From Burkholderiales bacterium (GTDB taxonomy: Bacteria > Pseudomonadota > Gammaproteobacteria > Burkholderiales > Burkholderiaceae_E), in assembly GCA_947487165.1 (NCBI GenBank), contig CANKWX010000009.1, positions 1-64,000 of the forward strand: DNA of 64,000 nucleotides, read 5' to 3'. The notes beneath the pieces are model-generated. The model was not told the origin of the DNA. It worked only from the letters and a program-made list of their open reading frames with translations, and did no database searches. Positions 27,906-49,690 of the stretch are shown one piece after another. The position numbers were made by a program, and so were the translations under genes. How positions within the stretch are numbered: position 1 is the first letter of the stretch; every line of letters begins with the position of its first letter.

Positions 27906-28286
27906 AAGCTGTACCTATACACTTTGCTGTGGCGGCAAATCAAATATTCGAAATCCTAGAGTCCGCCTGTCACAAGCAATAACTGCTAATGCGAAAACCG
28001 GCTTTTCTCGATCCGATGCCGAAACCGGTGACGGCAGCTAAATGCAGGAATTTTCTGTGAAAACACTCCGATTAGCGATTACCTTGTATACCGCCTTCAA
28101 AGCTTCGCGTTTTATATTACAAAAACAAATCCGCCACGATTAATTTAGTATGCAAAAATTTTTTAAAGTACATCCCTTAACCCAGTAACTTAACCATCTT
28201 TCCATCCTCTTGATAGTCTGACGAGATCAGCTCGACCTTGGGATATAGCTTGGATGCTCGTCATAATAAGTTTGACTTGCCGTTAG
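27906..28286. other. Intergenic, possible gene scrap on minus strand
   Basis: AT-rich. The minus strand at 28177-28260 has a short opening ending in RASKLYPKVELI then SSDYQEDGKMVKLLG and a stop. It looks like a C-terminal coding relic but matches no family I recognise. A small inverted repeat GAAAA/TTTTC surrounds CCGGC near 27993-28007. Nothing else is seen. Confidence 0.4.
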
Positions 28287-29000: not shown

Positions 29001-29127
29001 ACAATCGTTAATTTCACAACATCCATTGGATCGAGAAGCAGATAGATAGTGCGGCCTCGTTCAGCCCTTAGGCGTCATTCCGCCAAGGGCGTTGCATAAG
29101 CGTTAATGGTTGGAAAGTCCATATTGG

Positions 29128-31628: not shown

Positions 31629-31675
31629 AAATCCCTAATTCAATTATCAAAACAGCAGAGATTCAGCAGACCAAT

Positions 31676-33292: not shown

Positions 33293-33621
33293 AGCTCACC
33301 AATAAGAACTGTTTCTTCTTAATCAAATTTGCGCGCAATTATCAAAGCAGGCCCGCCCCTAATCTCTCCGATTTACTCGATCAATCTGGAACCTGATTTT
33401 AAATCGAACGCCTTCAATTCTCTCCACCCTAATTACAAAGAATTTCGAAGCTATTATCCGCAATTTACTTCAAGCAAATAATTTAATTCATCCTTCGACT
33501 CCATTTAACAGTATACTCACAGAATAGGTGTTGTTTTAATGGGAAACATCAATCCTCCGCACTGAAGTTCGCCCAGGATTAAATTAGAATTTTCTTCTGC
33601 GAGCACACAAATCAAATTCGA
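33293..33621. other. AT-rich intergenic region upstream of xrtA
   Basis: 329 bases without a gene, strongly AT-rich. It should hold the xrtA promoter on the minus strand, and the end of the 33.6-42.6 kb operon. I found no convincing -24/-12 or -35/-10 pair and no terminator hairpin with a T-run. Confidence 0.5.
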
Positions 33622-35349
33622 CTACCACCATCGAGGCCTACGAATCATCCCGTCAATCACCTGAGTGCCTTCGACTTGATTAAAAGTATGAGTTCGTACT
33701 ATGTCTCTCTCCCAGCCTGGCTCAGCAACAGTTACTGACCTTTCGCAATAATCATCAAAACTTAGTAAATGCACGTGGTTAATAGAAAAACGCCATCCGT
33801 ACGTATAGCTACAATCTTGCGATGGTCTGTATAGCAATCCGTTTCTTATAAATAGCTGACCAGCTGAGCGGGCCTTTCTTGAGTCTGATATTACGGGATT
33901 TTTCTCGTGAGGTTTCCACGTATTTGAAGGAAAATCCACTGATGAATAAATAAACAATTCGACAGACGTTGAAGCGCCCTCGACTTCAGACATATTTACA
34001 AACAACCACCATACAGAATTGTAAAAGTGAAGGGTTACATCCGACGCATCGACGTCTTCCATCAAATTACACACCTTCTCCCACTTATCTGGTAATGCAG
34101 CACATCGGTATAATGTTATGCATTTGCTTGCTCTTGATTCTGGAATCATATAAATCTCGCCACAATACATAAAGACGAATGGATGCGACAAATGATGAGG
34201 CGCAGTCAACGCTACGCGAACATTTTCTATAAGTCCAGTATCACTTACTTCTCCAACCGCTATGTGGCCACGGCCATTTGCTCTCAGCACTTCCTCAAAA
34301 AATACATAAGTTACTCCCCCAATTTCCAACAGATAAGGATCTGCCCAAAAGCGATCTTTTGGTGGAAGTGTACGAACAAATCGGCACATCTCAATATCAT
34401 CTAGAATAGATCGCCGGACAAAAATAGTCCATTGCTCCATCCACAATGCTGACTCAAATGCCTTAGTTACACGTCGAAAAATTCTTCTTAGTAAAATTGA
34501 TAACAACGTTGCGTTCGAAATATAATCTACGCTTCGCCCGGAAAAAGCCGTCGGATGCAAGTTAAGCAATTTAATTTCATCGTTGAATTTCTTTTCACCT
34601 AACCTATGAAGCTTCGCAACTAGGCGTGGAATCAACGGGACTGCTTGCCATGCAATACTTCTCCGATTGTCTTCAACAGAAGAAGTTATTGTTGAAGCCC
34701 AAGTACTGCTTAGGACTTGCGGACGAGCTTTATCTGATGTGTAGCGCCTTACAACGCAGCCAGTAGTCGGACGCTCATCTATCGATTCCCAAAATCCAGA
34801 AAGCAAGGTGGCAAAACCTGGAATACACTGAGGGTGCTCAATCGTCCACACGCCATAGCGTGCCAAAGATGAAATATCACGGATTATTTTTTCATGTCCC
34901 AGATTAACAATGAGATCGAATTGAAACTCTTGGGTTTCGGATGTTAATTGATTTTCAGATTTCGTACCACAGCTTTCGTTATATTTGCCGAATTCCTTTA
35001 TGCCACAAATATCAACGGCTGGAAGTACAGTTTTTATGAATTTACTAGCAAAGGCGTCTTTCAATTCTACCTCAGCTTGGCCGCACCCCCTAAGTAACCA
35101 AGCCAACACTCTTCCAAAACCGTCAAGCTTATTTTTAAAAACTCCAAATTCTCGTTGATTTGAGGCATATTCCTCAACTTCATCTTCCGCCCCTCTGCCT
35201 ATTGACTCCTGTACTAAAACGAGTTTAATTCTACTCGTTTTAAAATTATCAAGACGTTCCGCAACGCTTGCAACCCACGCAGGTACAACATCAGTCGATA
35301 CTATTAACGCGATCTGCATATACCCGGTTGTCTTATCGGATTTAATCAT
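33622..35349 (-). CDS. Formyltransferase-like domain fused to GINT1-like beta-propeller
   Basis: A 575-residue protein. Residues about 10-230 resemble a formyltransferase fold: FDLIVNLGHEKIIRDISSLARYGVWTIEH then SGFWESIDERPTTGCVV, where formyltransferases carry the GVINxH...G..P and Wxx...TG segments. Residues about 310-575 resemble the glycosidase-like propeller of glucosamine inositolphosphorylceramide transferase 1: DRFWADPYLLEIGGVTYVFFEE, GRGHIAVGEV, LSHPFVF, YMIPESRAS, WWLFVN, SAGQLFIRNGLLYRPSQDC and NHVHLLSFDDY. Known: such fusions occur in polysaccharide clusters. Likely it modifies or transfers an amino-sugar unit. It starts at an ATG overlapping the flippase stop. Function is inferred, not established. 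Confidence 0.7.
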   Translation of the reverse strand: MIKSDKTTGYMQIALIVSTDVVPAWVASVAERLDNFKTSRIKLVLVQESIGRGAEDEVEEYASNQREFGVFKNKLDGFGRVLAWLLRGCGQAEVELKDAFASKFIKTVLPAVDICGIKEFGKYNESCGTKSENQLTSETQEFQFDLIVNLGHEKIIRDISSLARYGVWTIEHPQCIPGFATLLSGFWESIDERPTTGCVVRRYTSDKARPQVLSSTWASTITSSVEDNRRSIAWQAVPLIPRLVAKLHRLGEKKFNDEIKLLNLHPTAFSGRSVDYISNATLLSILLRRIFRRVTKAFESALWMEQWTIFVRRSILDDIEMCRFVRTLPPKDRFWADPYLLEIGGVTYVFFEEVLRANGRGHIAVGEVSDTGLIENVRVALTAPHHLSHPFVFMYCGEIYMIPESRASKCITLYRCAALPDKWEKVCNLMEDVDASDVTLHFYNSVWWLFVNMSEVEGASTSVELFIYSSVDFPSNTWKPHEKNPVISDSRKARSAGQLFIRNGLLYRPSQDCSYTYGWRFSINHVHLLSFDDYCERSVTVAEPGWERDIVRTHTFNQVEGTQVIDGMIRRPRWW

Positions 35350-36827
35350 TGCTTCTTATGAACGAGCGACCGTAGTGTCTGTCGCAAGATAGAGTCCGTT
35401 GAGAATATCGCGCCACCGTAAAGCACGGATACAAGCGCAAATGTAGACAGCACTCGGGCCCAATGACTTTGAGCGACTAAGATTCCAGTGCCTGTGATAA
35501 TTAAAAAGCACACGCTTCCAGCTAGTACTGCCCTGCTCATCGCGGTCACCTCAGGCAAACATCGCATTGGCTTGGGACAAAATGAGTAGAGCAAGACGTT
35601 CATCACAGTCAGACTGAAGCATGTCGATGTCAATGCACCGATAGTCCCCCATGTCGGAATCGCAAAACAGTTCAGTCCAACATTCAGCACTGCCGCGAAT
35701 AGAATGACGATTAAATGTATGTCTGATCGTTTTCCAAGCAGCAGCCCCGTTGAGGCCACCTTCAGCACTGGCATTACCGAAAAGAAAATAGCCGCGATAA
35801 CAAATATTTCTGCTGCCGGCTCTTTATCTGCACCAGCCAATGTCAGAAGCAAGTCTCTCCCTGCTATCACCAAAAAACAGATGAAACCGCAAGAAATATA
35901 AAACAAAAAATTCATGAGCTTGCGCTTAAATGCAAGCACCGCCGCCTCGCCCTGTGTTTTATAGAGCCGATTAACAACTGGCGTGATAGCTTGAGAGAAA
36001 GCGTTTGTAATAACTTGGTCAAAGTATGACGCCAGTCCAAATCCGATGCTGTATATTCCCACAGCCGAAAAGTCATTCATCAGATGCTTTATCATTAGCC
36101 TGTCGACCAACCCTAACAAAACTCCTGATATCTCGCTCAATGCCATAGGAATGCCATAACGCATCCCCCTCTTCGTTTCCTTCAAGTCGATTTCCGCAAA
36201 GCTAAATTTAATTTGTCTAGACAGCCAATTTATAAGAAATATAGAAAACGCAAATGAGCAAATTAGGCGCGCAAAGATCACCCCTTCTGCTGCTGGCCAA
36301 AACTGGCTTAAAATCAGCAAGGTCACTACGACCGTTATCCATTTTGTTATAACATCGAAGGATGCATTAAATTTTGATTGCTCCCGTGCCCTTGAAATCC
36401 AAAGAGCATGGGACATGAATACCGTAAACATTACCTGGAAAAGAACAAAAATTATTACCGTCGGATTATCAAACTTTCCGTGCGCCTCGAGAGCAAAAGC
36501 GACTATCATGATTACTATCCAAATTGCAAAGGCTATCATCGCCGGCGCAATTAAAAAACTGGACCAAAACTTCATAAATTCTTTTTCATTTCCCTCATGT
36601 GGATAAAATCGAACCATTGTGTCTCCACACCCAAACTTCAGTAATGCTGCAATTAGTAGCCCACACGTATCAAAGTAGCTAAAAATACCGAACTGCTCCG
36701 TATCTAGAAGCCGAGCCGTAATCGGAAATGATACCAATCCAGCTCCTAGCACTAGGAAATTTCCTATTGCATAGCGGAATACATGGATGGAAAATCGCGT
36801 TGATCCTTTGCTAGACATATTTGGCAT
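35346..36827 (-). CDS. Oligosaccharide flippase (Wzx/MOP family)
   Basis: A 493-residue membrane protein with twelve to fourteen hydrophobic segments. It begins VFRYAIGNFLVLGAGLVSFPITARLL, the common start of MOP-family polysaccharide flippases, and keeps the inter-helix RLMIKHLMNDFSAVGIYSI pattern. Role: flipping the undecaprenyl-linked repeat unit to the periplasm. It lies between a GT2 and the formyltransferase-like gene in a minus-strand operon, with a 4-base overlap downstream. Base use is intermediate to AT-rich. Confidence 0.88.
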   Translation of the reverse strand: MPNMSSKGSTRFSIHVFRYAIGNFLVLGAGLVSFPITARLLDTEQFGIFSYFDTCGLLIAALLKFGCGDTMVRFYPHEGNEKEFMKFWSSFLIAPAMIAFAIWIVIMIVAFALEAHGKFDNPTVIIFVLFQVMFTVFMSHALWISRAREQSKFNASFDVITKWITVVVTLLILSQFWPAAEGVIFARLICSFAFSIFLINWLSRQIKFSFAEIDLKETKRGMRYGIPMALSEISGVLLGLVDRLMIKHLMNDFSAVGIYSIGFGLASYFDQVITNAFSQAITPVVNRLYKTQGEAAVLAFKRKLMNFLFYISCGFICFLVIAGRDLLLTLAGADKEPAAEIFVIAAIFFSVMPVLKVASTGLLLGKRSDIHLIVILFAAVLNVGLNCFAIPTWGTIGALTSTCFSLTVMNVLLYSFCPKPMRCLPEVTAMSRAVLAGSVCFLIITGTGILVAQSHWARVLSTFALVSVLYGGAIFSTDSILRQTLRSLVHKKQ

Positions 36828-36843
36828 CAGTCAGAAGACCCAG

Positions 36844-37758
36844 TTACCGCACGCGGATTTTTATAGGGCCCTGACCTACCTTAGCCAACTGTTTCCAATT
36901 TCGTATGTCTGACGGGTTACTGTGCACTGCACGAATTGCTGAAGTCGCCGATCGACGAAAATCGCCTATACCCATATAGCTTTCGGAACTTTCGCGCCAG
37001 ACAGCTGCATATGCTTGCCTGATAACTTTACCTTTCATATTCTCGGATCCGTGCTTGTGTATCAATTTCATCCGAGCCTGATGCATTTTATCAATACTCT
37101 TGCTCATATTGCTTTCATGTATGCGGTATTTCGCATGCACAGCATCGATATAATGCACATTCGATACTTCGCTGATACGTAGCCACATGTCACGATCCTC
37201 ACATCCGAGGCGATTAAAATCGCTATCGAACGCTCCAACGCGATCGATGACAGACCTTCGAAAAACGGCCGTAGCGCAAGACACGTGTTCGTTCCGCAGA
37301 AATATTTGCTGCCAGGCCTCTTGTTGATTAGTGCTCCACCTTCTATTGGTCGGTGCATTTAAAACGTCGCCGTCGCCATTAATCAGAATTATGTTCGCGT
37401 GCACGAGGCCGACCGCTCTTTCTTTCTCGAATACTGCTACGGATTCGCTTATGTGATTTGGTAGCCATATATCGTCAGAATCTAACAGAGCCAACAACTC
37501 CCCTGTCGCGTGCGCAATTGCAGTATTACGCGCACCTACCAGACCTGAGTTAGCCTGATGTACAGTTCTGACTTGTTGAGGAAATTCTTTCGCCAATTGG
37601 TTCGCAATTTCCCCGCTCTCATCAGTTGAACCATCATCGACAACAATTACTTCGACATTCGGATAGTTTTGTGTCAAAGCACTTTCCACTGCCTGGCGGA
37701 GATACCGCTCACCGTTATAAACCGGAACTATTGCGGAGACCTTTGGTAGTTTATTCAT
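36844..37758 (-). CDS. GT2 glycosyltransferase
   Basis: A 304-residue GT-A enzyme: VSAIVPVYNGERYLRQAVESAL, VIVVDDGSTDESG, SGLVGARNTAI, LLALLDSDDIWLPNH (DSDD metal site) and LGCEDRDMWLRI (late acidic residues). ATG 37758 (MNKLPK) is chosen over the one at 37767 because it sits just inside the preceding gene end, giving a short coupled overlap. A soluble enzyme acting at the membrane. No sugar specificity is readable. Confidence 0.87.
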   Translation of the reverse strand: MNKLPKVSAIVPVYNGERYLRQAVESALTQNYPNVEVIVVDDGSTDESGEIANQLAKEFPQQVRTVHQANSGLVGARNTAIAHATGELLALLDSDDIWLPNHISESVAVFEKERAVGLVHANIILINGDGDVLNAPTNRRWSTNQQEAWQQIFLRNEHVSCATAVFRRSVIDRVGAFDSDFNRLGCEDRDMWLRISEVSNVHYIDAVHAKYRIHESNMSKSIDKMHQARMKLIHKHGSENMKGKVIRQAYAAVWRESSESYMGIGDFRRSATSAIRAVHSNPSDIRNWKQLAKVGQGPIKIRVR

Positions 37759-38776
37759 CCTTATCAACTTTTGGTTGCAATTTACTGCTCTCGGTAATCG
37801 TCATTGCTTGTGCTCCGATGACCTTGCTCACTCTTTTTTTAAACTCAATATCATTTCGTAGCCGTAGAACGGCCTCGGGGGCTCGCCCAAGGAGAAGTGA
37901 TGCCTCTTCGACTGCTAATCCTTGCTCATTCGCCCACATCGCTAGGTCAATCTGCTGCCAAGGGAATCCAAAATAGAACTCGTCCTGTCCTTGAGACATT
38001 GAATAGGTATCGGTTGAGGGCGTCGCTTCCCGAATCGATTGGGGTAAATGCAGAAATTCAGCCGTAGCAAAGACTTGTGTTTTATAGAGATGTGCAATCG
38101 GTTTGATGTCTGCAGAACCGTCGCCATTGCGTACAAAAAACCCCAATTCATATTCGAGCTTATTGGGCGTGCCTAAAACTGCATAATTCAGTCGATCCGC
38201 ATGAAAGTACTCAACTGTCTTTCGCGATCGCTGTTTATAACTGGTCGCAGCGACAATCTGCAGCAGTTCACGGTGGGACAGACGGTCTTCGAATCGCTCA
38301 CCCGAAGGTGATTCGGCAATCAGCCGAAACGAAGCAATCTGCCCTTTGCCGCTTCCCGCAATCGCAATCTTCGAGCGCCAGCCATCACCATAGGCAGGGA
38401 TGACCCGCTTGATCGCCGCATCGCGTTGGGCATAACATCCAAAGGCGGTTAGTACCGGCGTGATATCGACTTCAAGATGCTCGATTCCAAGCATCTCGAC
38501 CAGTTCACGTCCTCTCGTCGTGCTGCCTGGTGAACTCTCGCGCTCAGGCAATAAAAGCCCGAAGACCTTTGAAGGACCAAGGGCCTTTACTGCCAGGGCT
38601 GCACAGACCGCACTGTCGATGCCACCTGAAATGGCTACGACGACGCCTCGCTTGCGCAGTTCACGCGATAGCGCGTCCTGCATCCAGCGACCAATTCTTG
38701 CAACTTCAGCCTCGGCATCAATCGCCAGAACCGATGCGCCCACCACTCCGCCTTCGTTTGACACGGGTGGAGTCAT
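37751..38776 (-). CDS. NAD synthetase-like ATP-pyrophosphatase of EPS module
   Basis: A 341-residue NadE-type protein. The PP-loop SGGIDSA lies at 50-56; further down are VLGTPNKLEYELGFFVRNGDGSADIKPI and LYKTQVFATAEFL, which are the deamido-NAD binding and second ATP segments of NadE. Known: NadE adenylates a carboxylate and amidates it with ammonia. The usual TGNKSE reads TPNKLE here, and it is not next to any NAD gene. It shares an operon with an acyl carrier protein, an acyl ligase and an AsnB-like protein. That suggests an amide- or amine-forming step on a carrier- or sugar-bound carboxylate rather than housekeeping NAD synthesis; this is inference. Its stop overlaps the next gene. Confidence 0.8.
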   Translation of the reverse strand: MTPPVSNEGGVVGASVLAIDAEAEVARIGRWMQDALSRELRKRGVVVAISGGIDSAVCAALAVKALGPSKVFGLLLPERESSPGSTTRGRELVEMLGIEHLEVDITPVLTAFGCYAQRDAAIKRVIPAYGDGWRSKIAIAGSGKGQIASFRLIAESPSGERFEDRLSHRELLQIVAATSYKQRSRKTVEYFHADRLNYAVLGTPNKLEYELGFFVRNGDGSADIKPIAHLYKTQVFATAEFLHLPQSIREATPSTDTYSMSQGQDEFYFGFPWQQIDLAMWANEQGLAVEEASLLLGRAPEAVLRLRNDIEFKKRVSKVIGAQAMTITESSKLQPKVDKDE

Positions 38777-39042
38777 CAGCCGAGCTTGTGCGCTACAAAT
38801 TCAGCGACGCCATTCAGACTGTCGAGATTCTCGGGGGTCATGTCCTCATCGGTGATTTCAATGCCGTAGTTCTCTTCCAGAAAGCCGACAAGTTCGAGAA
38901 AGCCGGTCGAATCCATGATGTGCATCTCGAGGAATGAGTCACTGTCTTCAATCGGCGCCGGTTGGCTTCCCATGATGAAATTCTCGGCAAGAAACTTTCT
39001 GAGGTCCGATTTCACCGCCAGCTTGCGTTGGTCGTCATTCAT
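38776..39042 (-). CDS. Acyl carrier protein
   Basis: An 88-residue acidic protein with the carrier-protein fold. The phosphopantetheine site is HIMDSTGFLELV with Ser45 in the DS pair, followed by EENYGIEITDEDMTPENLDSL as helix III region. It is not the fatty-acid ACP (DSLDTVEL style) but the kind found in polysaccharide and amino-acid-tailoring loci. It sits between the NadE-like gene (1-base overlap) and the acyl ligase gene (8-base overlap), so it is the probable carrier for that ligase. Confidence 0.9.
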   Translation of the reverse strand: MNDDQRKLAVKSDLRKFLAENFIMGSQPAPIEDSDSFLEMHIMDSTGFLELVGFLEENYGIEITDEDMTPENLDSLNGVAEFVAHKLG

Positions 39043-40687
39043 TGGGGATGTCCGCTTGGTTCAATTTGATGGAATCCTCGTGCAGGCCGCCTTGATAATC
39101 TCGGGCCAGCATGCGTTTGCTGATCTTTCCGGTGTCGGTTGTTGGCAAGACCGAAACAAAACTCACATGCTTGGGAACAAGATGCCCCTCAAGCAAGGCT
39201 CGACAGTGCACGATCACCTCGCGTTCGGTCAGTTCGACACCTTCCCGCAATACAACAAAAGCCTTGACTGCCTCTCCAAGCACCTCATCAGGAACCCCGA
39301 CGACCGCGACATCAGCGATGCCTTCGAGATGATGAATCGCATTCTCGACTTCGCGCGGACTGACCTTTTCGCCCCGGCTCTTGATAATGTCATCGGTGCG
39401 GGCGACGAAATACAGCCAACCCTCACGATCAGTACGAAAGATATCGCCGGTGTGGAGAATCATGTCGCCACTGATCCGATCCTTTCTTAGACGCTGGCCA
39501 CTGGCCTCGGGTTTATTCCAGTAACCGCGCATCACGTTTTGCCCTCGCACCACCAGCTCACCGGTACTACCAAAAGGCAAACGTGAGCCAGTCTCATCAG
39601 TCAGCCAGACCTCGACATTAGGCATACCTCGCCCCACGCTGGTTGGCCGACGATCGAGCATCTCGGGCGGCAGGTAGGTCACACGCTTGCATTCAGTCAA
39701 GCCGTACATCAGAAAAAGCTTTGCTGTCGAGAACAGTTGGCGCAGGCGTGCAATCTGCGGCTCTGACAGTGCTGCGGCTGTGTTGGTAACCGTCCTGAGT
39801 GCAGGAAGCTTAAGCGCTTCAGGATTACGCAGTGCCAGCAGCATCGCGAACATGGTCGGCACGCCCGGAAAGACCGTTACAGCTTCGCGCTGCATCGCTT
39901 CCACGGCTTTAACCGGAAAGGCGAACCCTCGCTCAAGGACGACACAGGCACCTTTTCGGGCGGCCATCAGGACTTGATACAAACCATAGTCGAATGCCAG
40001 AGGTAAGGCACAGAAGATCACATCGTCTTTGTTGATCCCGAGATAGTCACTGATCGAGCGGCCTGCACTCAGCATGTTCAAATGGCTGAGCATCACGCCC
40101 TTCGGATCGGCAGTCGAACCCGATGTGTAGATAATGCTTGCAAGGTCCTGATCGATGCATTCACCCGGCGCAAATTGTGGCCGGCAGGGAAAGTCTGTCG
40201 AAGGATTGGTTTCGCACTCGGGCCACCGAACGACACGGACGCCGTCGGCCCCCGAGATTGCCTGATCCGCTTTTTGCCTTGCCACAACACAAAGCCGCAG
40301 CTCTGGTGTATCGCGAATTGCGTCCAGCGAGAACTTCCAGAGTGAGCCCTGCGCGAGCAAGACACATGCGCCAGAGTCTCGAAGCATATAGGCGAGTTTT
40401 TCGGACTTGGTCATCGGGTTGATCGGCATGAAGACACCGCCAACGCTCAGCGTCGCAAAGATCCCGACCACTGCTTCAATCGAATTCTCAAGAAAAATCG
40501 CGACTCTCTCGCCGCGCTGAACGCCATTCTCTCGAAGCACCGTGGCAAGCGCTTCGACATGGCGCCCGAGCGTCGACCAGTTGATTCGCTCACCGTCACA
40601 GATCAGCGCGATCCGATCACCATGCTCGCACGCGCTGCGTTCAAGCCAATGATGCAGCAGGCGGACCGTGCCAAACGCGCTGCTCAT
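39035..40687 (-). CDS. AMP-forming acyl ligase, XrtA-associated
   Basis: A 550-residue ANL-superfamily enzyme. Motifs: ASIIYTSGSTADPKGVML (P-loop), MYGLTECKRVTYL (A5 region), LHTGDIFRTDREGWLYF, DDIIKSRGEKVSP (hinge) and TDTGKISKRML with the catalytic Lys. ATG 40687 is the likely start; it follows the AsnB stop by two bases and gives the normal N-terminus VRLLHHWLERSA. It fits the exosortase-A-associated acyl-CoA ligase group (TIGR03098). It should activate a carboxylic acid as the adenylate and load it on the neighbouring carrier protein or CoA. Confidence 0.9.
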   Translation of the reverse strand: MSSAFGTVRLLHHWLERSACEHGDRIALICDGERINWSTLGRHVEALATVLRENGVQRGERVAIFLENSIEAVVGIFATLSVGGVFMPINPMTKSEKLAYMLRDSGACVLLAQGSLWKFSLDAIRDTPELRLCVVARQKADQAISGADGVRVVRWPECETNPSTDFPCRPQFAPGECIDQDLASIIYTSGSTADPKGVMLSHLNMLSAGRSISDYLGINKDDVIFCALPLAFDYGLYQVLMAARKGACVVLERGFAFPVKAVEAMQREAVTVFPGVPTMFAMLLALRNPEALKLPALRTVTNTAAALSEPQIARLRQLFSTAKLFLMYGLTECKRVTYLPPEMLDRRPTSVGRGMPNVEVWLTDETGSRLPFGSTGELVVRGQNVMRGYWNKPEASGQRLRKDRISGDMILHTGDIFRTDREGWLYFVARTDDIIKSRGEKVSPREVENAIHHLEGIADVAVVGVPDEVLGEAVKAFVVLREGVELTEREVIVHCRALLEGHLVPKHVSFVSVLPTTDTGKISKRMLARDYQGGLHEDSIKLNQADIPNE

Positions 40688-40689
40688 GA

Positions 40690-42630
40690 TCAGACCGCCA
40701 TCGCCGGTCTGCTGACGAATTGATGCTCGAGCAGCAAGGTCGACAAGATGCCCACAAACGCCATATTGTCGCCAAAGCCCAGTGACCGGCCATTGCGACA
40801 CTTTTGCACCAGGCGACCGACTGCATCCGGATCAAACAGACCTGTCGCCCGCAGGTGCGATTCATCGAGCAGCGCCTCGACATAATCAGGGGCTCGTCGA
40901 TCGACGAAAAAGCACTGACTATCGGGGGTGCGATAGGGCTGCTTGGCTCGTTTGACGATGCTCTGAGGCACGAGACCGTTCGCGGCTTGCTTAAGCACGC
41001 GCTTTTCAAGCAGGCCACGCATCTTGGCTGCGGCCTGTAACTTGCCACCCCATTCGACCACTCGATGATCAAGGAAGGGATAACGCCCTTCGACCCCATT
41101 GGCAAGGCTCATGCGGTCTCCCTGTGCAGCCAGCAGGTAGCCGTCCAGAAGGGTATGCGCTTCAACGTATTGGTCTCGCGCAAGTGCGGACCACTTGGGC
41201 ATCGCTTTGGGCAGAGTCGATTCAAAGCAGGCAACCGGATCATAGGAACCAATCTGATCGCGAAGATCATCACTGAAAAACTGCATTGCACGCGACGTTG
41301 TCGACCAACGAATCGCATGCCCAAAGGTCGGCGATGAAAGAGCTTGCGGTTCGGCATGAAAAAATTTTGCCGACAGCGCCCGCCCGGCACCCGGCGAGTG
41401 CCTGAGCCAGGGGTAGAGGCGGGTGAGCAGGCTCGCCCGCCAAGTGGAACCGGGATGATTCGCCATCGAGCGCCGTACCCGCGCCTCTTTGAACAGATCG
41501 TAGCCGCCGAAGATTTCGTCTGCGCCTTCACCGGTCAGCACCACTTTGAAACCGGCGTCACGCACATGCCTGGAGAGCATCATCATTGCAACAGGGGCTG
41601 TGCGAACAACAGGCGTTTCAGCGTGAAAGATAGCCTTCGGAAACTGCGTTGCAATATCGGCAGCATTCACACGCATCGAAGAATGCTCAGTACCCAATTG
41701 CCCAATCACCTGCTGCTGATACAGGCTCTCATCGAACTCAGCATCCTCAAATGTCATTGAGAAAGTCCGGATCGGGATGCTGCGATAGCGCGCTGCAAGC
41801 GCTGCGATTAACGCCGAATCGAGCCCGCCGCTGACATAGGCACCAACCGGAACGTCCGAGCGCAATTGCAGTCGAACTGCGTCGTCAAGCAACTCAAGCA
41901 GGGCTTCGGGTCGAGTCGAGGCCGCAGTGATGTTGTCTGCAACCGGGTCAACCTCAAACTGCCAATCCCAATAGCGAGTCACCTGCACCCTGCGCGAATC
42001 GCAACTCAGCACATGCCCCGCCGGCAATTGGTGCACTGACGCGAACATTGTATCGGGCGCAATCGGCGCCCAGAATGTGAAGACCTGAGCGAGTGCCCTC
42101 GGGTTGATCCGGCGTGACATGTCGGGCAAGGTCAACAGTGCCTTGATCTCCGAGGCAAAAGCGAGTCTCCCGGCAGCTTGTGTGTAAAAAAGCGGACGGA
42201 TGCCAACCCGATCACGGGCCAGCAACAGCCTTTCACGAGGGGCATCCCAGATGGCGAAAGCGAATTGACCATTGAGGTGCTGAACCATCGCATCGCCATA
42301 GTCCTCGTAAAGATGAACCAGGACTTCGGTATCAGACTGTGTTTTAAAGCGGTGTCCTCTGGCGATCAGGCACTCTCTCAGCTCGATATAGTTAAAAATC
42401 TCGCCGTTCAGAACCACCTGAATGCTTCCGTCTTCGTTGCCGATCGGCTGAGCACCGCCTGACTGATCAATGATGCTGAGCCTGGCATGACCGAGCCCCG
42501 CCGCCCCGCCAGTCCAGATTCCTGTGCCGTCGGGACCACGATGGCTGATCGCCGCGATCATGGCCTGAATGTCTTCAGCACTTATCGGATGGCGACCACC
42601 ATGGTCGACAATTCCAGCGATTCCACACAT
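40690..42630 (-). CDS. XrtA-associated amidotransferase (AsnB-like)
   Basis: A 646-residue class II glutamine amidotransferase fused to an asparagine-synthetase ATPase domain. Catalytic Cys2 (MCGIAGIVDHGG), RLSIIDQSGGAQP, LNGEIFNY and SDTEVLVHLYEDYG mark the glutaminase; the synthetase part has VGAYVSGGLDSALIAALAA (PP-loop) and GEGADEIFGGYDLF. It matches the exosortase 1 amidotransferase 1 family (TIGR03108). The usual job is to add an amide to a carboxylate, here probably a uronic acid in the polymer such as the GalNAcA made by the 47-49 kb genes. Its upstream side is divergent from the ketoacyl synthase gene. Confidence 0.92.
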   Translation of the reverse strand: MCGIAGIVDHGGRHPISAEDIQAMIAAISHRGPDGTGIWTGGAAGLGHARLSIIDQSGGAQPIGNEDGSIQVVLNGEIFNYIELRECLIARGHRFKTQSDTEVLVHLYEDYGDAMVQHLNGQFAFAIWDAPRERLLLARDRVGIRPLFYTQAAGRLAFASEIKALLTLPDMSRRINPRALAQVFTFWAPIAPDTMFASVHQLPAGHVLSCDSRRVQVTRYWDWQFEVDPVADNITAASTRPEALLELLDDAVRLQLRSDVPVGAYVSGGLDSALIAALAARYRSIPIRTFSMTFEDAEFDESLYQQQVIGQLGTEHSSMRVNAADIATQFPKAIFHAETPVVRTAPVAMMMLSRHVRDAGFKVVLTGEGADEIFGGYDLFKEARVRRSMANHPGSTWRASLLTRLYPWLRHSPGAGRALSAKFFHAEPQALSSPTFGHAIRWSTTSRAMQFFSDDLRDQIGSYDPVACFESTLPKAMPKWSALARDQYVEAHTLLDGYLLAAQGDRMSLANGVEGRYPFLDHRVVEWGGKLQAAAKMRGLLEKRVLKQAANGLVPQSIVKRAKQPYRTPDSQCFFVDRRAPDYVEALLDESHLRATGLFDPDAVGRLVQKCRNGRSLGFGDNMAFVGILSTLLLEHQFVSRPAMAV

Positions 42631-42767
42631 TCGACAGTGGTCCCAGTGTCAGGCGATTGATTGACTCGCTGAGTCTAACAAGCAGCGCCATGCAGGTCTG
42701 TGCACGATTTGGGGATCTCCGACAGCCGGACGTGACCGTTTCGACATACGGTCGTCAGGGCGCCACC

Positions 42768-42773
42768 TATAAT
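42768..42773 (+). promoter_or_regulatory. Candidate -10 of KASIII/ACP/acetyltransferase operon
   Basis: A perfect TATAAT in the 184-bp divergent region, 42 bases before the TTG start at 42815, a fitting leader length. No clear -35 at 16-18 bases upstream; TCGACA at 42741-42746 has a spacer of 21. Low-moderate support. Confidence 0.4.
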
Positions 42774-42814
42774 CAGTTTGATCACTCCAAGCAACGAAAT
42801 TCCGACAAAGTATC

Positions 42815-43861
42815 TTGAGCCAATCACTCATCAATGGATTTCGCGTGGCCGGCATCAGCACCTGCCTGCCACCCAAAACCGTCGCCAATAACACCGAGGC
42901 ACCGAGATTCGGTGGTGATGAAGTCCGGAAGGTTGTGTCGATGGCGGGCGTCAAGCAGCGTCGAGTCGCTGAGCCGGATGTGACCTCTGCCGATCTTTGC
43001 TTTGAAGCAGCGACTCATCTGCTCAAAAGCCTCGACTGGGCACCCGAAACCATCACCGCGCTCATCTTCGTGACGCAAACGCCCGACTATTTGATGCCAT
43101 CCACCAGCTGCGTGGTGCACAAATGGCTCGGACTTTCTGACGCTTGCGCTGCCTTCGACATGGGCTTGGGTTGCTCGGGCTACCCCTATGGCCTCTATCT
43201 GGCCGCATCAATGCTCAAGGCGGGCGGGCAAGGTCGAATCCTGCTTTTGCACGGTGAAACACCAAGCCACTATGCCAGCACTGATGACCCGGCCGCCACG
43301 CTGCTTTTCAGCGATGCCGGATCGGCCACAGCCCTCGAGGTCGGTGACGATCACGGCGCTTTTTGCATGCACACCGACGGCTCGGGTCATGGTGACCTGA
43401 TCATCCGTGGTGGTGGGTTCCGGGAGCGATTTCCTGAGAAGGCCCGCGACCTGTCGGTACGGATGGATAGTGCAGCGATCTTTGCGTTCACGATCATTCG
43501 CATGCCAGAACTGGTGAAAGAAACCCTTGGGCTCGCTCAGTGTGGCATCGAGGATGTCGATGCTTTTGTTCTGAGCCAGTCGAACCGCTTTACGATGCGG
43601 CATCTCGCAAAAAAATGCGGACTGCCCGCCGATCGGGTGCCGATGACAATCGAGGAAGTCGGCAATTGCGGCGGCCCGTCGATTCCGGTCACGATCACTC
43701 ATCGGCTGGCCGATCAACCAAACGATGATGGCTTTTCGCCACGACGGCTAATGCTCCTGGGCTACGGGGTCGGTCTCTCGTGGGCGTCGGCACTGATCAA
43801 TCTGGATTCTCAATGTCACCTGATGCATCACGACTATCGTTCACAGGCGAAGCCACAATGA
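42815..43861 (+). CDS. Ketoacyl-ACP synthase III-like protein, catalytic His replaced by Ser
   Basis: A 348-residue thiolase-fold protein: INGFRVAGISTCLPPKTV, AGVKQRRVAEPDVTSADL, VTQTPDYLMPST, nucleophile Cys120 in DMGLGCSGYPYGL, and Asn284 in EEVGNCGGPSIPV. The usual His of the HQAN motif is Ser254 (VLSQSNRF). Without it, decarboxylative condensation should fail, so the enzyme may instead carry out acyl transfer from carrier protein to another acceptor, as some KASIII relatives do. The TTG at 42815 is the best start: ATG 42834 is out of frame, and GTG 42845 would drop the first strand. It overlaps the carrier-protein gene in an ATGA. Confidence 0.85.
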   Translation: MSQSLINGFRVAGISTCLPPKTVANNTEAPRFGGDEVRKVVSMAGVKQRRVAEPDVTSADLCFEAATHLLKSLDWAPETITALIFVTQTPDYLMPSTSCVVHKWLGLSDACAAFDMGLGCSGYPYGLYLAASMLKAGGQGRILLLHGETPSHYASTDDPAATLLFSDAGSATALEVGDDHGAFCMHTDGSGHGDLIIRGGGFRERFPEKARDLSVRMDSAAIFAFTIIRMPELVKETLGLAQCGIEDVDAFVLSQSNRFTMRHLAKKCGLPADRVPMTIEEVGNCGGPSIPVTITHRLADQPNDDGFSPRRLMLLGYGVGLSWASALINLDSQCHLMHHDYRSQAKPQ

Positions 43862-44133
43862 GCATCGGGGCTGAAAATATGACGATCAAACCTATCTCGA
43901 CTCATCAGGCTATCGCGTTGCTGGCAGAAGCGTTCATGGTGCCAACCGAAAGTCTCTCACTCAATACACGCCGCGAGGACCTTCCGGGTTGGGATTCAAT
44001 GGGGGCACTGGTGCTTATCGCCGAGCTTGACGAACGCTTTGGTGTGCTTCTGTCCGCTGAAGAATCCAGAAAATTGCACTCTATTGGCGATGCGGTGCAC
44101 TTCATGGAACGAAACGGCATTGTTTCGCGCTGA
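43858..44133 (+). CDS. Second acyl carrier protein
   Basis: A 91-residue carrier protein. The phosphopantetheine site is DLPGWDSMGALVLI with Ser47; ELDERFGVLLSAEESRKLHSIGDAVHFM forms the later helices. ATG 43858 overlaps the KASIII stop (ATGA), which shows co-translation and suggests that the two work together. It is distinct in sequence from the carrier protein at 38.8 kb, so the locus has two separate acyl carriers on divergent arms. Confidence 0.88.
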   Translation: MSIGAENMTIKPISTHQAIALLAEAFMVPTESLSLNTRREDLPGWDSMGALVLIAELDERFGVLLSAEESRKLHSIGDAVHFMERNGIVSR

Positions 44134-44152
44134 GTCTCCAGCATTGACGGGT

Positions 44153-45295
44153 ATGCGAGTCCCAAGCTTCGACGCGACCACCTCGCTGGTCTCGCGTGGC
44201 CTGGCAATAACACCATCGTTGCTGATCGATTCATTTGGTCCCGCGTCGCAGGCGGATCTGCTCGAGATCGTTTCGATGCGAGCCGCAAACCGTGCTGCAG
44301 CCACACCGTGGGACGACGAGGCTTATCTGCGGTGGCGATATCAGCTCGATTGCACTGAAGCGGGCTGGGGACAACTTTATGTGCTGCGCCACCAGCGTCA
44401 GATCATCGGCCTCATCGGTACTGAATCGATCATGCTTGATGTAGGGGGGCGCCAACGCTCCGGGCAGCGAGTTCAGGACATTCTGATTGCGCCGCATACC
44501 CGCGAAAGCGGGCTGGGTCTGTGGCTGAAACAGGCCCTTTTCAGAGACGGCGATTTTACAATGACGGTTGGCTGCAATGCCAATTCGATCGGCACTGTTA
44601 GGCGAATCTATGATTCGGTCACTCGTCGCGAAACTTTCGTCATGCCGCTTGATATCTCGACTCTACTGCGGAGCAGACTCGGCAATCGGTCTTGGGTCGA
44701 GCCGCTCGCAACGATTGGCAACACAGCTGCCGGACTGTGGCGCTCGGGGCATCGGCTGTGGGACTGGCGGGGGACGCGACTCGAGTTGGCAGACCGATTT
44801 ACCGATGAAATGCTCACCGGGCTGCAAAGCGCGAAAGATAAGTCTCAGATCGGCATGGTTAGGAAGGCAGACCATCTCAACTGGCGTCTGATCGATAATC
44901 CCAGAGGGCGCTACCGGATCAGTTCGGCATGGATCAAGGACCGCTGCATCGGCTATATGGCAGCCTCGGTCACCAATGATCTGGGTGGCACCAGTCACAT
45001 GACCGCATTGAGGCTGATCGACTGGTGCTTTGCGCCAGGCCTTTCAACCCCGGCAGTCTCAGTGCTTCTGCCAGAGTTGTGCCACTTCGGACGGGAAAGC
45101 GGTTGCGAGCGAGTAACTACCACGGTGCTGGGCTGCGAATCGGATACATGGCTCAGTCGAAGCGGTTTCCTGCGTCGGCCGGCTGGCGAGTTTGATGTGC
45201 TAGGTATTCGCTGGAGTGATCGGAGTTTCGCGCAAGGGCAGGCGAAAAACCTGGATTGGACGATGACAGAACTGGCAGGGGACTCGGATGGCTGA
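44153..45295 (+). CDS. GNAT-like N-acyltransferase
   Basis: A 380-residue protein with a GNAT-type core: WDDEAYLRWRYQLD, YVLRHQRQIIGLIGTES, VQDILIAPHTRESGLGLWLKQAL (acyl-CoA binding region) and CNANSIGTVRRIYDS; the second half repeats a GNAT-like fold (KADHLNWRLIDNPRGRYRI, CERVTTTVLGCESDTWL). Such double-GNAT proteins with the WRY motif occur in polysaccharide loci. ATG 44153 fits, with a GACGGG site just before it. It follows the carrier protein by 19 bases and overlaps the next gene by 8. The likely role is to move the carrier-bound acyl group onto an amino sugar. Confidence 0.78.
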   Translation: MRVPSFDATTSLVSRGLAITPSLLIDSFGPASQADLLEIVSMRAANRAAATPWDDEAYLRWRYQLDCTEAGWGQLYVLRHQRQIIGLIGTESIMLDVGGRQRSGQRVQDILIAPHTRESGLGLWLKQALFRDGDFTMTVGCNANSIGTVRRIYDSVTRRETFVMPLDISTLLRSRLGNRSWVEPLATIGNTAAGLWRSGHRLWDWRGTRLELADRFTDEMLTGLQSAKDKSQIGMVRKADHLNWRLIDNPRGRYRISSAWIKDRCIGYMAASVTNDLGGTSHMTALRLIDWCFAPGLSTPAVSVLLPELCHFGRESGCERVTTTVLGCESDTWLSRSGFLRRPAGEFDVLGIRWSDRSFAQGQAKNLDWTMTELAGDSDG

Positions 45296-45920
45296 CGCGA
45301 ATTCCGACAACAGCGACGACATTGACCAAGTGGTCATCAATAGCCAATCTGCTCTTGTCGAGAATCCGTGGCAGGATCTTATTGCCGACTTTCGCAGATT
45401 CGCATCAGCAAGTTCACATCGCAGCGGAGTTATCGGTCTTCTTGCTAATTGCCTTGATTATGGATTCATGGCAATCGCAATTTACCGGTTTGGTCGCTGG
45501 TGCCGGATGATCAGCCCGCGCTGGCTATCCATCTCGCCGAAATTCATTTATCAGCTATTGCGGGTATTCAGCAATTTGATCCTTGGGATCGAACTCTCGA
45601 CAGCGAGTCGCATTGGCCCGGGCTTCTACATTGGCCATTGGGGTGGCATCGTTGTCGGGGCAGATTGCGAGCTCGGATCGGGTTGCAGTGTCGGACAAGG
45701 CGTAACGATCGGCTACAAAGGGGCTGGTAAATCAACTCGCGGCCCCGTCATCGGCAACAACGTCTATGTCGGAGTTTCTGCGGTTGTTGTCGGTGAAATC
45801 CGGGTTGGCCACGGGGTAGTCATTGGAGCCAACACGACCGTCGTGAAAGATGTTCCGGATAACTATCGGGTTGTAAGCGCCGCCGTCCGCATGGATCCAA
45901 TCGCGGCAAAACCATCGTGA
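45288..45920 (+). CDS. Serine acetyltransferase-like hexapeptide acyltransferase
   Basis: A 210-residue left-handed beta-helix acyltransferase. The N-terminal helical part ENPWQDLIADFRRF to AIYRFGRWCRMI resembles the helical domain of CysE relatives. Hexapeptide repeats start at SRIGPGFYIGHWGGIVVGADCELG, with the active His in IGHWGG, and run to VVKDVPDN. The CysE-like His-Asp arrangement is only partly clear, and the polysaccharide context points to O-acetylation of a sugar rather than serine. It ends one base short of the convergent glycosyltransferase stop. Confidence 0.85.
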   Translation: MADANSDNSDDIDQVVINSQSALVENPWQDLIADFRRFASASSHRSGVIGLLANCLDYGFMAIAIYRFGRWCRMISPRWLSISPKFIYQLLRVFSNLILGIELSTASRIGPGFYIGHWGGIVVGADCELGSGCSVGQGVTIGYKGAGKSTRGPVIGNNVYVGVSAVVVGEIRVGHGVVIGANTTVVKDVPDNYRVVSAAVRMDPIAAKPS

Positions 45921-47071: not shown

Positions 47072-48154
47072 CTACTCGCGCGACGCGGGGATGAATCCCA
47101 CGTACCAGTCCATCGCGGCCTCAAGGCCGGCGGCAATATCGTAGGTCGGTGAATAGCCCAGCAGCGTGGCTGCCTTAGAGATGTCTGCCAGCGAATGCTT
47201 CACATCCCCAGCCCTGAAGTCACGAAACGAAGGTTCGACATCGAGCGATCGACCGAGTCGGGTCTGAAGGCTGGTTAGAATGGCACCATAGAGCTCATTC
47301 AAGCTTGTGCGACGACCCGCTGCCACATTAAAAACCTCATGCGGCGAAGGCAGGTCGGCAACCAGACCCGATCGGATATTCGCCTGAACCGCATTCGCTA
47401 CGAAACAAAAATCGCGACTGGTCTGCCCGTCACCATTGATCCAAACATCATCGCCCCTCAATAGCGAGGCAGTCCACTTTGGAATAACAGCTGCGTAGGC
47501 ACCATCGGGGTCCTGGCGAGGGCCGAAGACGTTGAAGTAGCGTAACCCGACGCACTGAATGCCATAACTTCGAGAAAAGGCGTCTGCAAGAACCTCATCG
47601 ATTGCCTTGGTCGCGGCGTAGGGCGACAGCACCTTACCGACCTGATCTTCGACCTTGGGCAACGCCGGATGATCGCCATAGACCGAGCTCGATGAGGCAT
47701 AGACAAAGCGCTTGACACCCGCCTGACGGGCAGAGTCCAGCAACTGCACAAAACCGGTGGCATTCGATGCGAACGAGCGCAGCGGGTCCTCGATAGAGCG
47801 CGGCACGGACCCTAAAGCTGCCTGATGCAGCACAACATCGACCCCTGCCACGGCCTCGCGACATGCTGACAAATCGCAGATATCCGCCTTCAGGAATCGG
47901 AATCGGCGCCATGCAGACTCACCCACCAATGCCTGCACTTCATCGAGATTGCGCTGGTGGCCGGTCGAGAAATTATCAAGGCCGACAACATTCTGCCCAA
48001 AGACCAGAAGAGCCTCAACAAGGTTTGAACCAATGAAGCCAGCCGCGCCGGTCACCAGCCAGGTCGCGGGCGACCGATCTGACAACAATGAAGCGATAGC
48101 GTTAGCCCCAGGGGTCTGACGACCCGGATCAGTCGCATACATCGACGCCGTCAT
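47072..48154 (-). CDS. WbpP/TviC-like UDP-GlcNAc 4-epimerase
   Basis: A 360-residue extended SDR enzyme. The NAD site [25 protein letters not shown] with the catalytic Ser/Thr region, SPYAATK with the YxxxK pair, [12 protein letters not shown], and [13 protein letters not shown] near the end. The last motif is typical of WbpP/TviC. It interconverts UDP-GlcNAc and UDP-GalNAc, or their uronates. ATG 48154 overlaps the dehydrogenase stop (TGATG), with GGAG seven bases upstream; the GTG one codon earlier is less likely. It forms a functional pair with the gene upstream. Confidence 0.9.
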
Positions 48155-49434
48155 CACAATCTCCAGACCGAATAACCAAGCTTTTCGAGCGCCGCTCGCT
48201 GGTAGGCGGCTTTGACATCGGCAAAGACGCCACCGCGCACAAGTCGATGGGTCAGCGACTCAAGCGGCAGCGACCGGTACCAGTCGTGATTGACTGCAGC
48301 GACCATGGCGGCTGCAGGGGGAAGCTCGTCAAACGGCACAAGGTTGACACCGTATTCGTGCATAGCCTCTTCAGGCGAAGCAATCGGGTCATGCACGCAG
48401 ACCTTCACACCAAACGATTCGAGTTCGCGAACAACGTCGATCACCTTGGAATTGCGCAAATCCGGGACGTTTTCCTTGAAAGTCAGCCCCAGCACGATGA
48501 CCGATTGATTGGCCACCGGCTGTGCTTGCTGAATCAGTCGCTTGATCACCTGCTCGGCAACAAATTTACCCATGCCGTCATTGATGCGCCGACCGGCCAG
48601 GATCACCTGAGGGTGATAGCCGAGCATCTCTGCCTTGCGCGTCAGATAGTAAGGGTCAACACCAATGCAGTGTCCACCGACGAGGCCCGGGCGAAATGGC
48701 AGAAAATTCCATTTTGTACCGGCCGCTTTCAGGACTTCCGCCGTGTCGATGCCTGCTCGTTCAAAGATCAAAGACAGTTCGTTCATCAAGGCGATATTCA
48801 GATCACGCTGGGTGTTCTCGATCACCTTCGCAGCTTCAGCGACCTGCAGGCTCGACGCGCGGTGAACGCCCGCTGTCACCACTGCCGAATAAAGCTGAGC
48901 GACTTTCTCAAGAGTAGCTGGCGTATCGCCGGCAACGACTTTCACGATCGTCGTGAGCGTGTGCTCCTTGTCACCGGGGTTGATACGCTCAGGCGAGTAG
49001 CCAACAAAAAAATCCTTTTTCCATTTTAGCCCAGACGTATTTTCAAGAATCGGAATACAAATCTCTTCCGTTGCCCCGGGGTAGACAGTGGACTCATAGA
49101 TAACCACTGCGCCTTGCTTCAGATTCGCGCCCGCACTTCGACTGGCTGAAATAAGCGGGGTGAAATCAGGCTGGTGAGCTTCATCAACCGGAGTTGGTAC
49201 CGCGACGACGATGTAGTCAGCACGCTTCAATTCGCTGGCGTCGGTCGTGACAGTCAAAAGCTTTGCCGCCTTGAATTGATCAAGACTCACTTCTCCCGTC
49301 GGATCCTGGAACCTACGGAAATTGGCAATTTTTTCCTCTGCCAGATCGAAGCCGATGGTTTCAAACACTCGGCCGAACTCAACCGCGAGCGGTAAACCAA
49401 CGTAGCCCAGACCGATAACTGCAACCGTTGCCAT
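48154..49434 (-). CDS. WbpO/TviB-like UDP-N-acetylhexosamine 6-dehydrogenase
   Basis: A 426-residue nucleotide-sugar dehydrogenase. N-terminal Rossmann domain [20 protein letters not shown], then [26 protein letters not shown] and SPERINPGD; catalytic Cys256 in [15 protein letters not shown]-terminal domain [20 protein letters not shown] 49434 begins right at the first beta strand; the TTG four codons earlier is less likely. It oxidises UDP-GalNAc or UDP-GlcNAc to the uronic acid with two NAD. Together with the epimerase it makes UDP-GalNAcA, as in Vi antigen and Pseudomonas B-band LPS. First gene of a three-gene operon. Confidence 0.92.
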
Positions 49435-49690
49435 GGGAAACCCCAAAGTTCATTCGAACCGCGAGTTTACAAAACGAACCGGGTCGCGGGTAATCAGCAA
49501 TGCCTTTTCATTCGGGTCGGTCACTGCAAACGACACACAGGCGGATCGACGGTCATTTCAGCAGGCGGGGCGGCGTTGAAGCTCGTCGTGCTGGCGCTTG
49601 GGTTCAAGCGGCGCACGAAACCTGCTGCGTCCAACTGAACTGTTATTGACATTCAGCAGATCTCCTGAAGTTCGTTGACAGTAACGCTGA
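49435..49690. other. Intergenic between sugar-nucleotide operon and Tad cluster
   Basis: 256 bases. It holds the upstream region of the dehydrogenase gene and the downstream end of the Tad cluster, both on the minus strand. No hairpin with a T-run and no clear promoter were found. No supported gene. Confidence 0.5.

Follow-up and report, generated by a model that had tools for sequence, protein, structure and literature searches.

We describe a group of eight genes (Table 1) in a 64,000-nucleotide stretch of DNA from a Burkholderiales bacterium (GCA_947487165.1, contig CANKWX010000009.1, positions 1 to 64,000), hereafter the window. The genes form two arms on opposite strands of an exopolysaccharide locus that includes an XrtA exosortase gene. 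The minus arm encodes an AsnB-like amidotransferase, an AMP-forming ligase, a free-standing acyl carrier protein (ACP1) and a NadE-like protein. The plus arm encodes a KASIII-like protein (KAS), a second carrier protein (ACP2), a tandem GNAT acyltransferase and a hexapeptide-repeat acetyltransferase. The four minus-arm genes recur as a cassette in other bacteria, and the NadE-like protein, a paralog of NAD synthetase that we take to be recruited from NAD synthesis, is not the only such protein in its genome. We propose that the genes encode a carrier-protein amide-building module, in which amide groups would be made on an ACP1-bound acid and the product handed to an amine. Taken as a whole this scheme is tentative, and we place it a little short of an even chance.

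The recurrence of the cassette was studied in the best 80 of at least 569 stretches encoding a NadE relative (NadE alignment scan), which were taken for their likeness to the NadE of the window, not drawn at random, and have flanks of up to 10 kb. With profiles made from the window proteins and from relatives of the first round, and counting presence within the fetched stretch rather than adjacency, the ligase is found in 74 of the 80 loci, ACP1 in 72, the AsnB-like protein in 58, the GNAT in 30, and KAS and ACP2 in 8 each. Many of these contigs end close to the NadE-like gene. Where at least 6 kb is present on both sides (44 loci), the ligase is found in 41, ACP1 in 42, AsnB in 40 and all three in 39. 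The other five are L138 and L160, which have none of the three, L120 and L136, which lack AsnB, and L162, in which the ligase falls below threshold. The commonest gene orders are AsnB-ACP1-ligase-NadE (24/80) and that order followed by the GNAT (9/80). Twelve stretches found separately with the NF002048 model have the ligase and ACP1 in every case and AsnB in 11, and all four cassette genes are present in 13 of 13 plasmid loci analysed (14 were retrieved, L083 not being counted, and several of them belong to the same species or genus); the profiles for these two counts were widened on those same loci. The carriers are alpha-, beta- and gammaproteobacteria, together with metagenome-assembled genomes (MAGs) labelled Myxococcota or Chloroflexi (L086, L111 and L105).

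The neighbourhoods of other NAD synthetases, taken from the window's own genome and 14 other carriers, served as the control. Ligase, ACP1, AsnB, KAS and ACP2 were each found in 0 of these 15 loci, in two of which (L179 and L180) the NAD synthetase itself was missed at the threshold used. With 39 of 44 relatives set against 0 of 15 control loci, the linkage of the cassette is not due to chance. Over 79 loci the NadE distances correlate with those of AsnB (Mantel r 0.743), ACP1 (0.573) and the ligase (0.443), and over 31 loci with those of the GNAT (0.749), none of 999 permutations being as high in any case; shared host ancestry would likewise give these correlations. The distances, like the NadE tree used below, were computed with uncertain ORF starts, leaving out the near-copy L066 and not including L083.

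The NadE-like protein was modelled with AlphaFold2 (pLDDT 86.2) and the top Foldseek matches of the model are NadE chains. The motif SGGxDS and residues R185, T203, E208, D223 and K232 are constant across the family; these presumably correspond to the ATP and dinucleotide (substrate) contacts of NadE. The protein has about 50 extra residues between NadE profile positions 112 and 179, where the Pyrococcus horikoshii enzyme has about 15, and this region is modelled as three strands (residues 134-166). After a P-[ST] motif the family has the loop DT[YWF]xxxQxQ[DE]E[FY]Y. Neither the insertion nor the loop is present in the three PDB chains aligned. The family is uncommon: at E 1e-60, and with the window's own genome counted, it occurs in 2 of 399 genomes from the order and in 15 of 398 from the phylum. 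Loci L138 and L160 (Planctomycetes and Caldithrix by their MAG titles) have an NF002048-type NadE without the cassette genes, and this family may have an ancestral role elsewhere.

The subfamily model, NF002048, carries the name NAD(+) synthase, the fold and active-site residues are kept, and the NF002048-type search also matched Methanosarcina acetivorans, a control genome. Together with L138 and L160, this would be expected if the protein were a spare NAD (or NMN) synthetase whose position is incidental. We consider this extremely unlikely. There is a canonical glutamine-dependent NAD synthetase elsewhere in the genome (contig C68; NF010588, 789 bits against a cut-off of 479), as the first-pass annotation of the window needed for its proposal to stand, and because of this enzyme the NadE-like protein is probably not needed for NAD synthesis. 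All 14 other carrier genomes likewise have a further PF02540 protein, 12 of them strong matches (226-257 bits) and two weaker (G621 and G724, 82-83 bits). A spare synthetase would also leave the insertion, the loop and the linkage to ligase, ACP1 and AsnB without explanation.

In the PDB, ACP1 is matched best by 2my5 (E 1.2e-7), a discrete peptidyl carrier protein. At the threshold used, the top PDB sequence matches of the ligase are adenylation domains of nonribosomal peptide synthetases (NRPSs), the high rank of linear gramicidin synthetase being partly due to the summing of its two adenylation domains. Because of these matches, the natural reading is that the ligase would load ACP1. The class of acid is left wide, a fatty acid on ACP1 included, for two reasons. 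Fatty-acid-CoA-ligase models score higher on the ligase (383.7 bits, against 262.2 for an amino-acid adenylation model), and one of them, PRK06187, is its second-best NCBIfam match. In addition, the Asp by which NRPS adenylation domains hold the amino group is present in 36 of 103 cassette-type ligases, those of the window and of Sinorhizobium meliloti among them; the 103 are every strong match of the ligase model, second ligases of a locus included. In view of this count we have dropped the general claim that the ligase is an amino-acid adenylating enzyme.

There is experimental background for such a pair in S. meliloti, where the gene of the ligase SMb20650 shares a transcript with that of the ACP SMb20651. 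When SMb20650 is expressed in Escherichia coli, SMb20651 becomes acylated (PMC7232532); the passages of that paper on the two genes cite earlier work and do not name the acyl group. They also state that SMb20650 does not replace FadD, efficient long-chain acyl-CoA formation being absent. This is no argument against fatty acids, since it says only that SMb20650 forms no long-chain acyl-CoA. A passage in a transcriptome paper groups SMb20650 with fatty-acid activation genes (PMC10315480), and of SMb20651 it is said elsewhere that its 'functions need further investigation' (PMC5686131). A stretch of pSymB has the order AsnB-ACP-ligase-NadE and is presumably the smb20650/smb20651 locus, the records of strains 2011 and 1021 being unannotated. 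The likeness to the window lies in the ligase with its cognate ACP. The pSymB stretch differs in having no KAS, ACP2 or GNAT by the models used and in lying outside an exopolysaccharide locus.

The ligase and the amidotransferase had been taken in the first-pass annotation for known XrtA partners, and this did not hold. TIGR03098 is the best-scoring model for the ligase, yet at 449.8 bits it is below its cut-off of 592, and the AsnB-like protein scores 463 bits with TIGR03108 (cut-off 817). These are the nearest exosortase-partner models and the locus is of the same kind, but with both scores under the curated cut-offs the two proteins are relatives, not members, of the XrtA-partner families. 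In the available sequence of the window's own genome, a genome-wide profile scan found no protein that exceeds the cut-off of either family model. A second TIGR03108-like amidotransferase, also below the cut-off (543 bits), is encoded elsewhere in this genome (contig C43, 10841-12778). In Steroidobacter gossypii (L116), a true TIGR03098 ligase (639.8 bits) is present apart from the cassette ligase.

The top PDB match of the AsnB-like protein is the hydroxyamidotransferase 7ylz. Its likeness to TIGR03104 (375 bits, below the cut-off of 570) points to the N-acetylglutaminylglutamine amide pathway, which has a GNAT-type partner and an ATP-grasp fusion. The window differs from that pathway in its carrier proteins, ligase and NadE-like protein, and no ATP-grasp fusion of that kind is found among the window ORFs scanned with profiles (28 of the 56 listed, plus ACP2). 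Another parallel is the loading module of glutarimide polyketides such as cycloheximide, in which an asparagine-synthase-type enzyme is proposed to amidate a carrier-bound acid at its free carboxylate, ahead of chain building (PMC4853412). As in those modules, the AsnB-like gene and a discrete ACP gene stand together, in one gene run with the ligase gene alone between them. The glutarimide loader is a malonyl acyltransferase, whereas the window has an AMP-forming ligase instead and the NadE-like protein in addition; there is no malonyl acyltransferase and no modular or AT-less polyketide synthase (PKS) among the scanned ORFs. The cassette would be a carrier-bound amide module that is unusual in its recruited NAD-synthetase paralog. 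No description of it was found in the literature searched, which left out most subscription journals, and to this extent the suggestion of the first-pass annotation that the module is undescribed stands.

These data suggest how the minus arm may work, although we infer the reaction steps, the substrate and the acceptor, and observe the genes, their linkage and the paralogy, with folds that are predicted. In the first step the ligase would adenylate a carboxylic or amino acid and load it onto ACP1, acylation having been reported for the probable Sinorhizobium homologue in the passages cited above. In the second, the AsnB-like protein, using glutamine-derived ammonia, and the NadE-like protein, by ATP-dependent adenylation, would amidate the free carboxylate or carboxylates of the ACP1-bound unit. 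The second step is proposed because of the chemistry of the two families and their linkage to the ligase and ACP1. The amidated unit would then be used directly or by way of KAS and ACP2.

The same two enzymes might instead amidate a sugar-nucleotide uronic acid to give uronamides, the ligase, ACPs and GNAT forming a separate N-acylation route to the same polymer. AsnB-type enzymes form uronamides in O-antigen loci. In the window, the TviB/TviC-like pair (47072-49446) suggests that hexosaminuronates may be present in the polymer, and it would make UDP-hexosaminuronates. NadE-type enzymes normally amidate a dinucleotide, so that a change to a UDP-uronate as substrate would come naturally, and the presumed ATP and dinucleotide contacts are constant in the family. 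However, dehydrogenase-like genes are found in only 2 and epimerase-like genes in only 5 of the 80 relatives' flanks, and several rhizobial cassettes have non-glycan surroundings. Uronamide formation would also leave the frequent company of ligase and ACP1 beside the NadE-like gene unexplained, and we regard it as rather unlikely.

The first-pass annotation had made the co-occurrence of the two arms in other genomes a test of its proposal. Both arms are present in 8 of the 44 flank-complete relatives (L089, L090, L101, L103, L109, L112, L117 and L133). Five relatives have the order KAS-ACP2-GNAT as in the window, with ACP2 between the other two. In L101 (a Competibacteraceae MAG) and L103 (an Aquabacterium MAG) the genes AsnB, ACP1, ligase, NadE, KAS, ACP2 and GNAT are all on one strand, and the plus arm and the core converge in L133 (Thiocapsa marina). 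The genes for KAS, ACP1 and AsnB are mutually adjacent on one strand in L109 and L112. In L089, L090 and L117, ACP2 and KAS precede AsnB and there is no GNAT by profile. A FabA-like dehydratase with two SDRs in the KAS arm of L089, and a FabA-like dehydratase in that of L101, are as would be expected for chain building on ACP2. On the NadE tree (105 rows) the KAS label takes six changes, of which at least three are forced by starred branches; shuffled labels take 8.8 on average, and 2 of 500 shuffles are as low as six. The tree is a quick one, without a mixture model, and short-flank loci were scored as having no KAS. Because of these changes, the arms have probably come together or separated on more than one occasion.

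All nine cassette KAS proteins have the motif GN-x-GG-x-S, where the outgroup has GNT, and by this mark of sequence they are a subfamily of their own. The window KAS falls below the FabH cut-offs (NF006829, 194.3 against 249 bits; TIGR00747, 168.9 against 292). A search of genome contigs with the KASIII query alone confirmed nothing, and over 369 genomes of the class the KAS profile found only the window's own genome and G897. The latter was rejected as a cassette carrier, as it has a different module with an SDR, a hexapeptide protein and two KASIII proteins with GNT motifs.

Modules of KASIII, ACP, SDR and acyltransferase are known beside surface-glycan genes (flagellin glycans, Bacteroidota capsules), and the plus arm resembles them in having KASIII, ACP and an acyltransferase near glycan genes. 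Might it be an ordinary module of this kind, one that supplies an amino sugar with a short hydroxyacyl group and merely happens to lie beside the amide cassette, so that the arms act on different groups? Four of the five plasmid KASIII relatives read (332 records matched) are in such loci, namely a Burkholderia glumae flagellin plasmid with vioA, KASIII, ACP, SDR and acetyltransferase genes, Azospirillum flagellin loci and a Parabacteroides capsule locus; the fifth has an SDR and a GNAT beside KASIII. In contrast, the cassette KAS proteins are a separate subfamily linked to the NadE cassette, KAS directly adjoins ACP1 and AsnB in L109 and L112, and among the scanned window ORFs there is no FabG-type SDR, no aminotransferase and no vioA-like gene. 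An ordinary glycan module therefore seems distinctly unlikely to us. The B. glumae plasmid itself (pBGF3, L037), a small one, carries an acyl module for flagellin glycan, with a flagellin gene followed by vioA, KASIII genes, an ACP, an SDR, an acetyltransferase and a Rieske protein.

The assignment of the KASIII-like protein to its family (ACP_syn_III and ACP_syn_III_C) stood, while its catalytic equipment proved incomplete. Cys120 and Asn284 are kept, but the catalytic His of the Cys-His-Asn triad, intact in all eight cassette relatives, is replaced by Ser254. The window KAS also departs at 20 positions that are constant in the other eight, the most of any of the nine. Either this protein now serves in transfer, or the plus arm has begun to drift. 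Decay of the plus arm, with a KASIII past function and genes on the way to being lost, would account for the lost His and the 20 departures, and among the 105 rows of the tree the end branch of the window NadE is the longest (0.82; median 0.12). Against decay, all the frames are open, the overlaps are intact, ACP2 retains its DSM site and KAS its Cys and Asn. Departures at otherwise constant positions number 0 in the GNAT, 0 in ACP1, 1 in the ligase, 2 in AsnB and 6, mostly conservative, in NadE. We judge decay to be very unlikely. In the carrier-bound amide scheme, KASIII and ACP2, where the plus arm exists, would take over the unit and extend or relay it; in the window relay or acyl transfer is more likely than condensation because the catalytic His is absent.

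The tandem GNAT ORF, scanned from 44027, has no Pfam or NCBIfam match at E 0.01, and a PDB sequence search gave no match. Its AlphaFold2 model (20-row alignment; pLDDT 88.3, pTM 0.87) has N-myristoyltransferases as top Foldseek matches (TM about 0.5), and VIA-align superposes nearly the whole chain on N-myristoyltransferases and bacterial tandem GNATs (2hv2, 7q3a, Eis2) with Z 19-21 over 285-326 residues (rmsd 3.1-5.8). The model thus predicts two GNAT domains in one chain with an N-myristoyltransferase-like fold, in agreement with the 'double GNAT' of the first-pass annotation. A sequence search in 200 genomes found the GNAT in the window's own genome alone, and phmmer with the window GNAT among the 80 loci matched only the five GNATs of the KAS-ACP2-GNAT loci. 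A weak plasmid match (E 3e-3) adjoined a NadE-like gene. GNATs of the window kind accompany the NadE cassette without KASIII in Azospirillum and Pseudoxanthomonas, so the GNAT does not belong to the KASIII set alone, as had been supposed. In the last step of the scheme the GNAT would move the carrier-bound acyl or aminoacyl group to an amine, in the window most likely that of an amino sugar of the exopolysaccharide. The hexapeptide gene had also been counted in the module. Its profile matches in 7 of the 80 loci and in none of the eight KAS loci, so it is not a recurrent partner. It probably serves a separate O-acetylation step.

The genes around the cassette differ among the loci. A GT2 gene is about 3 kb from the cassette in L070, two glycosyltransferase genes are upstream of it in Roseateles (L068), and in Azospirillum glycosyltransferases and a polysaccharide deacetylase precede it and a GNAT follows. 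On several rhizobial plasmids, however, the cassette is among transport, min, regulatory or other non-glycan genes. Near the cassette there are also proteins with A, T, KS and AT domains in L101 (16714-20942) and L117 (15110-20972), an A-T protein in L090 (1-2431) and a C-A-T protein in L121 (17569-20673), so the cassette may also feed PKS/NRPS assembly lines. The tie to the polysaccharide made in the first-pass annotation is thereby loosened, and the core resembles a building unit for general use, with the polysaccharide as one of its users. A wider proposal is that the NAD-synthetase paralog is an amide synthetase for carrier-bound acids and that AsnB-ACP-ligase-NadE is a portable unit with varied end uses, namely exopolysaccharide decoration by a tandem GNAT (as in the window), KASIII/ACP chain building, PKS/NRPS lines and stand-alone rhizobial metabolites. 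We think this possible but doubtful.

Several points weigh against the carrier-bound amide module. In addition to the choice of loci, the counting by presence and the shared host ancestry mentioned above, the fatty-acid-like scores of the ligase, the scattered Asp, the grouping of SMb20650 with fatty-acid activation and the incomplete triad of the window KAS all count here. The GNAT is present in only 22 of the 44 flank-complete loci, KAS with ACP2 in 8 (in 5 of them with the GNAT) and a polysaccharide marker in 19, and because the core also occurs without these the final acceptor cannot be one and the same at all loci. The GNAT profile, which was widened by iteration, matches 3 of the 15 control loci and is therefore broad. 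The scheme also does not explain why two amide-forming enzymes should be needed on one substrate. In the control, the GNAT profile matches a gene some 3 kb away from that of the other NAD synthetase, in L169 (13484-14653), L170 (13719-14900) and L171 (13342-14508), with E about 1e-59 to 1e-61.

The features of the window are given in Table 1. The eight module genes have the places, strands and families that the first-pass annotation had given them, with all eight ORFs open, and the XrtA exosortase gene is confirmed by its TIGR03109 match. In the minus arm there is a gap of 2 nt between AsnB and ligase, and ligase and ACP1 overlap by 8 nt and ACP1 and NadE by 1 nt. In the plus arm the overlap of KAS and ACP2 is ATGA, and that of the GNAT and hexapeptide genes is 8 nt. 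The GT2 ORF is the next on the minus strand and overlaps the end of the NadE-like ORF, and the exosortase gene is further down the same strand. An Rfam scan of the window gave no match.

Table 1. Genes of the two arms and of their context in the window
Feature	Position	Strand	Support (bits against cut-off unless stated)
NadE-like ATP-dependent amide synthetase (predicted)	37751-38776	-	NF002048 420.4 against 313
ACP1, free-standing carrier protein	38776-39042	-	PP-binding 22.7 against 20.8
AMP-forming ligase, putative ACP1 loader	39035-40687 (ORF open to 40801)	-	AMP-binding 301 against 30
AsnB-like glutamine-dependent amidotransferase, N-terminus MCGIAG	40690-42630	-	TIGR01536 497 against 267
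KASIII-like protein	42815-43861	+	ACP_syn_III 46.9 against 24; ACP_syn_III_C 64.9 against 26.6
ACP2, carrier protein	43858-44133 (scan from 43855)	+	PP-binding 23.1 against 20.8
Tandem GNAT acyltransferase	44153-45295	+	Predicted structure (pLDDT 88.3)
Hexapeptide-repeat (CysE/WcaB-like) acetyltransferase	45288-45920	+	Hexapep 38.8 against 27; EpsC/CysE models below cut-off
GT2 glycosyltransferase (context)	36844-37767	-	Glycosyltransferase models, all below cut-off
XrtA exosortase (context)	31676-33292	-	TIGR03109 263 against 208
TviC-like sugar-nucleotide epimerase (context)	47072-48157	-	PRK15181 408, below cut-off 760
TviB-like nucleotide-sugar dehydrogenase (context)	48154-49446	-	TIGR03026 380 against 190; PRK15182 469, below cut-off 592

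Beside the XrtA exosortase gene, 33622-35349 encodes a protein with a GINT1_N domain (136 bits); this domain takes its name from a sphingolipid glycosyltransferase and is here in a bacterial protein. The region 21000-30100 (GC 0.47-0.51) has short ORFs and methyltransferase-domain genes, and a weak match to the integrase core (rve) at 26132-26614 is below its cut-off (31.4 against 32.6 bits). This low-GC region may represent the remains of mobile elements separating the two halves of the exopolysaccharide locus. The GC content is 0.42-0.45 at 30000-38000 and 0.54-0.57 in the module; beyond the locus most values are 0.58-0.67. From these differences the exopolysaccharide locus looks like a mosaic.

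If the carrier-bound amide module is real, many genes annotated as 'NAD(+) synthase' would make something else, given the at least 569 stretches with a relative from which the best 80 were read. It would give a direct handle on the Sinorhizobium carrier protein SMb20651, and also on a chemical group in XrtA exopolysaccharides; loci of this type have been tied, in the literature covered, to floc formation in activated-sludge bacteria. Finally, the NadE-like protein would provide ATP-dependent amide synthesis, perhaps on substrates bound to a carrier.

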